Shown: in pieces, positions 11,041 through 22,117 of the stretch
How positions within the stretch are numbered: the stretch's first letter is position 1
How the letters are laid out: each line of letters starts with the position of its first letter
The notes under the pieces: model-generated
Told to the model about the DNA's origin: nothing
The model's input: only the letters and a program-made list of their open reading frames with translations
Database searches by the model: none
Made by a program: the position numbers and the translations under genes
Origin: Tubiluchus corallicola
Lineage: Eukaryota; Priapulida; Priapulimorpha; Priapulimorphida; Tubiluchidae
Length of the DNA stretch: 64,000 nt
Direction: 5' to 3'
Assembly (NCBI GenBank): GCA_030141605.1
Contig: JAQGDQ010000605.1
Location: 15,368 to 79,367, forward strand

Positions 11041-11097
11041 ATGGTTTCGTTAAAGTTGCTTTTCGTGTTTTCGTTACTATGCCGCGTCTGTATAGCA
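11041..11097 (+). other. Signal peptide of the GH31 protein
   Basis: The first 19 codons encode a basic start and a hydrophobic core (LLFVFSLLC), with a small-residue cleavage site after VCIA. This sends the enzyme to the secretory pathway, unlike the cytoplasmic bacterial YihQ. Confidence 0.85.
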
Positions 11098-20000: not shown

Positions 20001-22117
20001 ATGCTTTAATAAGTTTTGCATTATTGAACTTCTTCTAAACGTTAGGGTCACAGAAGTACAGTATCATGACATGGGCGGGTGATCAGAATGTTGACTGGAG
20101 TCTGGATGACGGAGTGGCTTCAACAATTCCGGCTTCACTCTCGCTGGCTATTAGTGGCTTCGGAATAAATCATTTTGATATTGGAGGGTACACGACAATG
20201 TTTGTGATGAAGAGGTCAGAGGAACTGCTACTTCGTTCTGGAGAATACGCCGTATTTACACCTGTAATGCGAACTCATGAAGGTAAAACAATCAGCTATC
20301 AGCTTTTTATTCACTTACTAAGTTAGTCTGGCCTCCGTAGCCACGACTGAATCCGAACATTTAAACAGTTAAGTATCAACTTGTATAAATTAGCCATGCC
20401 CATAGACCCTGTAAGACCCTTAGGCCTGTCTTTAGGCCTACTTATTAATCACTTAAAGCTGACTAATCTCAAGCCAACCATTATGCCAACCAGTCAATCA
20501 ACTAACACACACTACCACGGCCGGATTAAGATCCGAAGAGTCTCCAAGCACTGAAAAGGTTATCGTACCTCCATGTAGAATATAAGCAATACTAACCTGT
20601 AAAATGAAATTTTGTCTTTCGAAATAAAAAAACTTGCAGTAAGATTTATTCACAGTAAATGCTAAGGCATCGGCTTACATTGCGTAAAAAGTGATATCAG
20701 ATTAAAAATATAGAGACTAGATTTGATGAAGGGAGAGCCATTCAGCATATCTGCCCCACCCAATTTCAAGTTCGCGCCACTAGTTCTTCTCTGTTACGTG
20801 CATTTCGCCATTCAATCGTTAGACGGGCACTAGCGCCTACATTTCGGAAACCGTTGCACAAAACAACAGGTGCTGTACTCCTCAGTTCAGATGTGTTAGT
20901 TTGTGACGAACTGCACACGCTCGATAGCTCATGCGTGAGTACAGCGGTAAATTTGAAGTTTTATCTCAAAACTTGCCTAGTTTTAGTACAACACACTGAA
21001 TCTCTTACAGTGACACTGTACTTCAATTTTCGCTTTCGCAAACACGTGCAACCTCATGGAATATTTTGCTGTTAAAATCATGTTAGTTTGTGATGTCATC
21101 AATGGTTGGGCTCGCCCGCCGTTAATTAGGTTTTTAATCTTTTATTTAATTATCAAAAATGCTTTTGCAGTATTAATTGCGTTAAAATGTTAAGTTTTCA
21201 TCGGACTTGAAAATTGGGTAGTATATGATAATCATCCTGTCTTCCTTTAATGGTTAATTCAAGGCTGCAACAAATAACAGATCAGCTTCGGAAAGATAAA
21301 CAAATGAACGAAAATGGAGAAAACGAAAAAATGCTCCATTTGGTTATCAATCAGTCCGATCATCCAACGAACCTATTAATCAATCAGAAAATCTGCAGCC
21401 AACTGACTAATTAACCAACCAATTAAACTACCAACCGACCAAAAAGCCAGCCAAAAAACATTTTATGTATTTAAAAACCACTGTGACAAATCAAGTGACC
21501 AACTGCTCTGAATCTGCTAAAAGATGGATACAGACACAAACATTTTCTTTTCTCTAGGAAATCGACCTGAAGACAATGTTCAAATCTACTCTTCTGAGAA
21601 CATACTGGAAAAATTTGCTCGTTTATGTAACATGTTCACCACGTTGAAAAATTATACCAAGCATCTTATAGAAATCAACAGAAATGAAGGAATATCGGTA
21701 CAGCGACCATTATTCTATCATTACTCAGAGCCTGAGTGGGTTTTCCAGGAAAAATATGAATACCTTTATGGACCAGATTTACTAGTAGCACCTGTGTATA
21801 GACCAAGAATTGCAAACTGGACTGTAAGAATACCTCCAGATACTTGGATACATTTGTGGACACAAAAATCGTATGAAGGCCCGGATGTAGTGGAGGTGCC
21901 ATCTCCTATTGGACAACCACCTGTTTTTTACAGAGAAGGCAGCGAGTGGACTGATGTGTTTCTCAAGCTCGCAGAATTTCCTCTTGTTCCCGACGTTGTT
22001 TCAACTGAACAGCCAACAGAGGCGACTACAAATGGTGCGACTACCATTGCAGGTCGTTGGTTCCAACAGAGATTCGTCATACTTTTACTTGTCATAAAAT
22101 TGTGGTTACGCAGTTAA
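11041..22117 (+). CDS. Secreted GH31 sulfoquinovosidase-like enzyme, 12 exons
   Basis: Likely hydrolyses alpha-glycosides of sulfoquinovose, the 6-sulfonated glucose of plant, algal and cyanobacterial sulfolipid. Exons: 11041-11172, 12802-12990, 13706-13901, 14472-14563, 14894-15038, 15197-15312, 17267-17408, 17757-17851, 19114-19237, 19715-19930, 20046-20282, 21558-22117. All borders are GT-AG and phases agree, giving 747 residues. Residues 1-19 form a signal peptide. From about residue 42 to 707 the protein is colinear with E. coli YihQ (678 residues) and is shifted by +23 in the catalytic region. Nucleophile Asp428 lies in GGWMADFGEYLP and acid/base Asp495 in WAGDQNVDWSLDDG. The substrate signature Gln-Gln-Arg-Trp-Tyr is present as Gln285, Gln311, Arg324, Trp327 and Tyr531. 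The C-terminus is a Thr-rich linker followed by a hydrophobic tail (RFVILLLVIKLWL), suggesting a GPI or membrane anchor. No frameshift or missing key residue was seen. Function is inferred from family residues and not proven. Confidence 0.93.
11578..12816 (+). repeat. 72-bp tandem array carrying the exon 2 splice acceptor
   Basis: About 17 copies of a 72-bp unit in GH31 intron 1. Each unit contains TTTATTTCTAG followed by ATTTTGAAGCACAGT. The last, partial copy supplies the true acceptor and the first five codons of exon 2 (12802-12816, residues I-L-K-H-S), so the array runs across the intron/exon border. Units differ by a few substitutions (GTTGAT/GGTGAT, GTCTAAG/GGCTAAG). The long reverse-strand open frame over this array is only the repeat read backwards. 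Confidence 0.95.
13991..14471. other. GH31 intron 3, nothing further seen
   Basis: Intronic sequence between the exons ending at 13901 and starting at 14472. It has no transposon ends or tandem repeats. The short open frame at 13987-14214 is not coding. Confidence 0.4.
16072..16690 (+). repeat. 37-bp minisatellite in GH31 intron 6
   Basis: About 16-17 head-to-tail copies of a 37-bp unit (GGACTGGTCTAGAATGATTG followed by ACATCTGACCCCACTAA). Variants mostly swap ACGTCT/ACATCT and TCTAGA/TCTTGA. One unit near 16570-16580 is broken by a short insertion. There are no spacers, so this is a minisatellite and not a CRISPR array. Confidence 0.95.
17956..18136. repeat. (CTA/CTG)n trinucleotide microsatellite
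   Basis: About 60 CTA units with a short CTG block near the left end, in GH31 intron 8. The poly-Ser and poly-Leu open frames seen here are artefacts of the repeat. Confidence 0.95.
18233..18310. repeat. (AT)n microsatellite
   Basis: About 38 TA dinucleotides in GH31 intron 8. Confidence 0.95.
18343..18424. repeat. (AAT)n microsatellite
   Basis: About 26 AAT units with one AAC interruption, next to the fragment of a LINE 3' end. Confidence 0.95.
18585..18740 (-). mobile_element. LINE reverse transcriptase C-terminal fragment
   Basis: Read on the minus strand this gives an open stretch with TRTFSHATLTVWNNLP, then IRSCDDIITFKNAQDTFF, and a stop. It is the typical C-terminal tail of non-LTR retrotransposon ORF2 proteins (pattern ..LWNxLPxxIR..xxFKxxLKxxLF). 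The AAT-rich tract just beyond it (18343-18424) may be the old element's 3' tail. This is a truncated, dead copy inside GH31 intron 8. Confidence 0.7.
19210..19693 (+). repeat. 121-bp tandem array carrying the exon 9 splice donor
   Basis: Four copies of a 121-bp unit starting at 19210, 19331, 19452 and 19573. The first copy begins inside exon 9 and contains its last 28 bases (CCCCGCTGCTTGGAACTGGT, ACAAAG) plus the real donor GTATGT at 19238. The next three are intronic duplicates that each carry the exon end and an intact donor (19359, 19480, 19601). They differ from the exon by an A for G in CCCCACTGC. Confidence 0.95.
20765..21250 (-). mobile_element. TTAA MITE, family 2, reverse copy in GH31 intron 11
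   Basis: Reverse-complement match to the 4691-5313 element. Its outer end, CTGTCTTCCTTTAA at 21237-21250, is intact and the other end is lost near 20765. It lies wholly within the last intron of the GH31 gene. Confidence 0.7.

Follow-up and report, generated by a model that had tools for sequence, protein, structure and literature searches.

The release of sulfoquinovose from sulfolipid has been credited to bacteria, and the sulfoquinovosidases (SQases) studied so far are, to our knowledge, bacterial as well. In these GH31 enzymes, with E. coli YihQ as the reference here, the residue set QQRWY (or KERWY) is what we take to read the sulfonate and the sugar. Animals have GH31 enzymes of another kind, the alpha-glucosidases, of which MGAM and sucrase-isomaltase are membrane-tethered gut ectoenzymes. 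Sulfoquinovose production is put at ~10 billion tons a year (PMC10755693). A 2022 review calls the eukaryotic enzymes of the sulfoquinovose pathway unknown or uncharacterised, and according to a 2026 review neither eukaryotes nor archaea have a characterised pathway of this kind (PMC12890257). Two papers describe a lipase-first route in mammals and stereospecific release of alpha-SQ by YihQ (PMC12330013; PMC9594981).

Here, a 64-kb stretch of a priapulid genome assembly (C2112:15368-79367, hereafter the window) was found to carry a GH31 gene of this type. To judge from the sequence, it is very probable that this enzyme releases the sulfur-bearing sugar from membrane lipids of plants and algae. 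The reading favored here, at roughly three chances in four, is that of a single-copy animal gene for a YihQ-type GH31 SQase, tethered and predicted to free sulfoquinovose from dietary sulfoquinovosyl glycerol. The enzyme is of a known kind; its novelty lies in the setting.

The coding region occupies positions 11041-22117 of the forward strand, where twelve exons and eleven introns of 115 to 1954 bases yield a spliced GH31 protein of 747 residues (Table 1). The original prediction had placed the gene and seven named residues exactly. All of its eleven spliced introns have GT-AG boundaries, and nine of the eleven junctions are spanned gaplessly by P0001, a sequence that shares 90% identity with the protein along 84% of the query length. 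P0001 aligns with window residues 114-744 and thus covers junctions 3-11; junctions 1 and 2 lie outside it. As its frame fits 635 residues on a contig of only 3041 bases, it is free of introns and is probably the transcript of a close relative, with a processed copy as the alternative. When the protein was compared with the window by tblastn, every exon was matched and no second gene copy was found within the 64 kb. An acceptor for exon 2 nine bases downstream, at 12811 (744 residues), was considered and dropped; the one at 12802 fits the relatives better, agrees with the residue numbers of the original prediction and keeps the residues ILK, which align with the relatives. The protein was also searched against the animal's own assembly (343.5 Mb, 2344 contigs), where it had 21 matches, 12 of them to exons of this locus. 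The remaining nine, each on a separate further contig, reach just 21-30% identity, which leaves this as the sole SQase-like locus found in the assembly.

Table 1. Exons of the SQase-like gene and neighboring genes in the 64-kb window.
Feature	Position	Strand	Content and support
Exon 1	11041..11172	+	Start codon; hydrophobic signal-like N-terminus MVSLKLLFVFSLLCRVCIA
Exon 2	12802..12990	+	tblastn support; acceptor not covered by P0001
Exon 3	13706..13901	+	GGGEQF motif
Exon 4	14472..14563	+	Gene model and tblastn
Exon 5	14894..15038	+	Gene model and tblastn
Exon 6	15197..15312	+	Q285 = YihQ Q262
Exon 7	17267..17408	+	Q311, R324, W327 = YihQ Q288, R301, W304
Exon 8	17757..17851	+	Gene model and tblastn
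Exon 9	19114..19237	+	Gene model and tblastn
Exon 10	19715..19930	+	Nucleophile D428 = YihQ D405; R478
Exon 11	20046..20282	+	Acid/base D495 = YihQ D472; Y531 = Y508; H560 = H537
Exon 12	21558..22117	+	C-terminal GH31 domain, Thr-rich linker, hydrophobic tail FVILLLVIKLWLRS, stop
Bcl-2 family ORF, animal-type neighbor	24329..24946	-	PF00452, E 3.6e-18
FOXO gene, two exon-bearing ORFs (forkhead and FOXO transactivation domain)	49804..51935	-	PF00250, PF16676

Several introns of the gene are repetitive. Intron 1 consists mostly of a 72-bp minisatellite (11580-12816; 17.2 copies, 97% alike) whose unit, compared by eye, repeats the acceptor and the first bases of exon 2, so that this intron is rich in decoy acceptor sites. 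A second array derived from a splice boundary lies at 19210-19689, where four copies of a 121-bp unit repeat the 3' end of exon 9 and its donor site through intron 9. Intron 6 holds a 37-bp tandem array (16075-16691) and intron 8 long TAC, TA and ATA microsatellites (17960-18424).

The protein matches YihQ over residues 43-699 with 770 bits (E = 1.4e-230), far beyond chance, and the two are about 50% identical over the whole length. Among PDB sequences, six distinct SQases score 630-771 bits; the next GH31 enzyme, an oligosaccharide glucosyltransferase, scores 137 bits, and GANAB (79-89 bits), human MGAM (73), GAA (67), MYORG (49) and sucrase-isomaltase (41) score lower still. Animal alpha-glucosidases reach about 26-89 bits among the 60 sequences listed. 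The NCBIfam model NF007746 (PRK10426), whose own description reads 'alpha-glucosidase', is matched with 868 bits against a cut-off of 553, and the alpha-xylosidase model with 173 bits, under its cut-off of 606. Three Pfam models exceed their cut-offs (PF01055, 160 bits; PF21365, 63 bits; PF13802, 30 bits), and the GH31 TIM barrel and C-terminal domain are both present. Fold evidence comes from a structure model of P0001, the 90% identical relative, built on a 29-row alignment (pLDDT 85.7, pTM 0.86). Ranks 1-23 of its PDB matches are all SQase chains (TM 0.86-0.88); the next rank is the alpha-xylosidase YicI (TM 0.74), with an E-value 29 orders weaker than that of rank 23. By the score gap of 770 versus 137 bits and by the fold ranking, the window protein sides with the SQases, apart from other GH31 enzymes.

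Active-site residues were compared in an alignment of 61 SQase rows (28 animal, 32 counted as bacterial, one from Paramecium). The five residues of the window's QQRWY set (Q285, Q311, R324, W327, Y531) align with their YihQ counterparts, as do D428, R478 (YihQ R455), D495 and H560 (Table 1), and all 61 rows keep both catalytic Asp residues as well as the Arg and the His. A retaining mechanism for D428 and D495 is assigned through membership in family GH31. The rows counted as bacterial read QQRWY (28), KERWY (three) or QQQWF (one), and the Paramecium row reads QQRWY. QQRW is found in 26 of the 28 animal rows and complete QQRWY in 22; four read QQRWF (amphioxus P0003, Asterias, Babylonia P0007 and Nucella P0014), and position 531 is Phe in six. 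The set is further altered in the snail paralogues P0125 and P0129. With these degenerate copies and the Y531F rows, the animal clade is not uniformly SQase by its residues. Two columns, 476 and 526, split the animal rows from all others. Column 526 precedes G529, which is invariant, by three residues; it is Phe in 27 of the 28 animal rows versus Ser in 32 of the 33 others, a change that could alter specificity.

Relatives were collected from two protein searches, as the best 120 of 3210 and the best 120 of 3169 matches. The animal SQase group comprises at least 30 proteins among the matches listed: 28 with animal names, and P0001 and P0020, which were counted as animal by their position in the tree. 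Nineteen of the 28 animal-named relatives among these matches carry the annotation name sulfoquinovosidase or sulfoquinovosidase-like. By the phyla of their genera, the relatives listed are hemichordates, cephalochordates, echinoderms and molluscs, with one brachiopod and one bryozoan; the best 120 matches of either search included none from cnidarians, sponges, arthropods, nematodes or vertebrates. The original prediction knew of no characterised animal SQase, and no study of one was found in the literature searched, which covered few subscription journals. The gene is no lone case but one of an animal clade of at least 28 rows, many of them named 'sulfoquinovosidase-like'.

The tree of SQases was built from matched stretches of loci: the window with 27 of the 30 proteins of the animal group, 32 rows counted as bacterial and one ciliate. 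It is confined to SQases and its root is not inferred; YicI was left out since, as an outgroup, it sits on a branch of 10, too distant to root the tree. The 28 animal rows form one clade (support 100/100), which was present in all 200 bootstrap trees checked. The GH31 phylogeny suggested with the original prediction has thus been obtained for SQases only. Inside the animal clade, the echinoderms, the hemichordates, amphioxus, and the molluscs with the brachiopod form groups of their own, and the window and P0001 form a separate deep branch. The ciliate row, Paramecium sonneborni P0156, falls among Bacillota and is paired with P0124 (100/99), a placement that suggests a separate acquisition by ciliates. 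AU tests left the groupings of the window with molluscs (p-AU 0.123), of the window with echinoderms (0.0502) and of Paramecium with the animals (0.067) unrejected. Because no alternative is rejected, the exact place of the window among the animals and two eukaryotic acquisitions are unproven.

The single animal clade fits one old animal gene with vertical descent since. A bacterial origin of that gene is likely, as the rest of the SQase family is bacterial. A wider proposal is more tentative, and we hold it at somewhat short of even odds: the SQase may have entered an early animal (bilaterian or older) a single time and persisted as a tethered digestive ectoenzyme among deuterostomes, spiralians and one ecdysozoan lineage. 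In that case marine invertebrates, alongside bacteria, would open the global sulfoquinovose cycle, and the ciliate copy would have been acquired separately.

The neighboring genes of the contig were also examined. The window FOXO has its top match in Priapulus caudatus (514 bits, 56% over 97%), ahead of a second match of 442 bits (64% over 21%) and of Limulus at 375 bits. An unrooted tree combines the window FOXO with 24 of the 120 proteins listed and includes one very long row (P0166). In it the window FOXO pairs with Priapulus (support 99/100), at ~62% identity over shared columns. The animal is accordingly taken for a priapulid or close kin of one; at this identity it is not Priapulus caudatus. 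Together the two FOXO proteins adjoin nemerteans and molluscs (95/96), not arthropods, which is unexpected for an ecdysozoan grouping. At 62687-63763 the window also holds a long single ORF with a signal-like start, a Gln/Pro-rich and acidic stretch and a von Willebrand A domain (PF00092, E 5.3e-20). Elsewhere in the assembly, contigs C215, C295, C402, C1729, C1105, C20 and C1975 bear intronless GH31 frames of 585-1026 residues, probably from co-sequenced bacteria. Five others (C45, C2048, C2100, C2197, C2212) share one GH31 exon set with identical scores on all five, probably because these contigs are repeated haplotypes or because a block of an alpha-glucosidase cluster has been duplicated.

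Could a bacterial yihQ have been joined to animal DNA by contamination or misassembly? The assembly does seem to include bacterial contigs, to judge from intronless GH31 frames of 564-1026 residues on other contigs. At this locus the eleven GT-AG introns, a contig shared with a FOXO and a Bcl-2 family gene, and the 100/100 grouping with animal homologues speak against it, and the idea is refuted for practical purposes, scarcely credible by our estimate. The original claim of an animal gene rather than a bacterial contaminant is therefore upheld by the introns and the two neighbors. An ordinary animal alpha-glucosidase of the GAA, GANC, MGAM or MYORG group, misread as an SQase, would share the GH31 family, and the Pfam models name GH31 only. 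The scores to such enzymes are, however, 6 to 19 times weaker (41-137 bits versus 770 for YihQ) and the SQase residues are present, so that this reading is very improbable and is refuted at the family level. Here the prediction of an SQase rather than an alpha-glucosidase agrees with sequence, fold and active-site residues alike.

Two further explanations accept the clade and differ on what the enzyme does. In animals, a GH31 of the SQase clade might have shifted to another C6-charged or neutral glycoside, for instance one of the animal's own sulfated or acidic glycans, and would then be no dietary SQase. This would be in keeping with the animal-diagnostic Phe at 526, the change of Y531 to Phe in six animal rows, the degenerate snail paralogues, secretion and tethering unlike bacterial YihQ, and a downstream pathway not found in a weak search. 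The window copy, however, has the full QQRWY set and the catalytic pair, all five residues recur in 22 of the 28 animal rows, and the fold search ranks SQases first by a wide margin; we regard such a shift as decidedly unlikely. A true SQase with a non-nutritional role (sulfolipid clearing, shaping of the gut flora via sulfoquinovose, action on ingested chloroplast membranes) is unlikely to a lesser degree. Sulfoglycolysis genes were not found in the assembly by that weak search, and oyster-associated Vibrio are described as carrying the SQ pathway (PMC12542681), so that bacteria could take the freed sugar. The chemistry would be the same as in the favored reading of a tethered dietary SQase.

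The ends of the protein bear on where such an enzyme would act. The 15-residue hydropathy maximum at the N-terminus is 2.22 in the window protein versus 1.01 in YihQ, and the relatives are signal-peptide-like too. The C-terminal tail reaches 1.64, slightly over the interior maximum of 1.47, versus 0.53 in YihQ. The tails of the relatives are more hydrophobic than that of the window protein; some of them are GPI-like, while others have an end that is basic and cytoplasmic-like (Branchiostoma P0012). The predicted structure of P0001 has a helix at its C-terminus. Six N-glycosylation sequons are present in the window protein. Hydropathy thus suggests a secreted, membrane-tethered ectoenzyme, in plan like sucrase-isomaltase.

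As a dietary SQase, the protein would enter the secretory pathway through its N-terminal hydrophobic segment and be tethered by its tail, as a transmembrane or GPI anchor, exposed to the gut lumen or to a digestive vacuole. Dietary SQDG from algae, cyanobacteria and detritus would first be converted by lipases to sulfoquinovosyl glycerol. The enzyme would then cleave the alpha-glycosidic bond of this product in the two steps of the retaining GH31 mechanism and so release sulfoquinovose and glycerol. The animal may profit from the glycerol or lipid moiety, with the sulfosugar left for gut bacteria or excreted. The gene would belong to an animal SQase clade that dates back to the split of the sampled phyla or earlier and is in the end related to bacterial SQases. 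When E. coli YihT and YihS were used as queries against the assembly, exon by exon and without a positive control, YihT gave no match and YihS one weak match (26%, 30.7 bits). The animal had been predicted to digest the sulfolipid headgroup itself: cutting of the glycosidic bond is supported by the sequence, but of breakdown of the freed sugar there was no sign in the assembly, in a weak test limited to these two queries.

An animal-encoded SQase clade lets the release of sulfoquinovose by grazers and deposit feeders themselves be tested directly. An animal SQase would also give a eukaryotic enzyme for comparison and would alter models of sulfosugar flow in marine food webs. Its novelty is below what had been claimed, as the animal family is already named in databases, and above it, as the gene belongs to a conserved animal clade.

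Among known systems, the bacterial GH31 SQases (YihQ; PDB 5aed, 5oht, 8r56, 6pnr, 5ohs) have the same fold, Asp pair and QQRWY set. Unlike YihQ, which is without both end segments, the window encodes a eukaryotic split gene with a signal-like N-terminus and a hydrophobic C-terminal tail, and no sulfoglycolysis cluster surrounds it. The NAD+-dependent SQases of family GH188 (SqgA) carry out the same net reaction but differ in family and in their redox mechanism; GH188 gene candidates are reported for plants and a red alga (PMC10755693). Animal GH31 alpha-glucosidases (GANAB, GAA, MGAM, sucrase-isomaltase, MYORG) have the GH31 fold in common with the window protein and score low against it. The Paramecium sonneborni protein is eukaryotic and has QQRWY intact, like the window, but groups with Bacillota, unlike the window. 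Also comparable are the RefSeq proteins of marine invertebrates named 'sulfoquinovosidase-like' (Ptychodera, Branchiostoma, Asterias, Lytechinus, Haliotis, Patella, Ruditapes, Watersipora and others), which are 43-53% identical to the window protein, form one clade with it and have like end segments in those examined. For these the label is an annotation name only, and to them the window adds the priapulid lineage.
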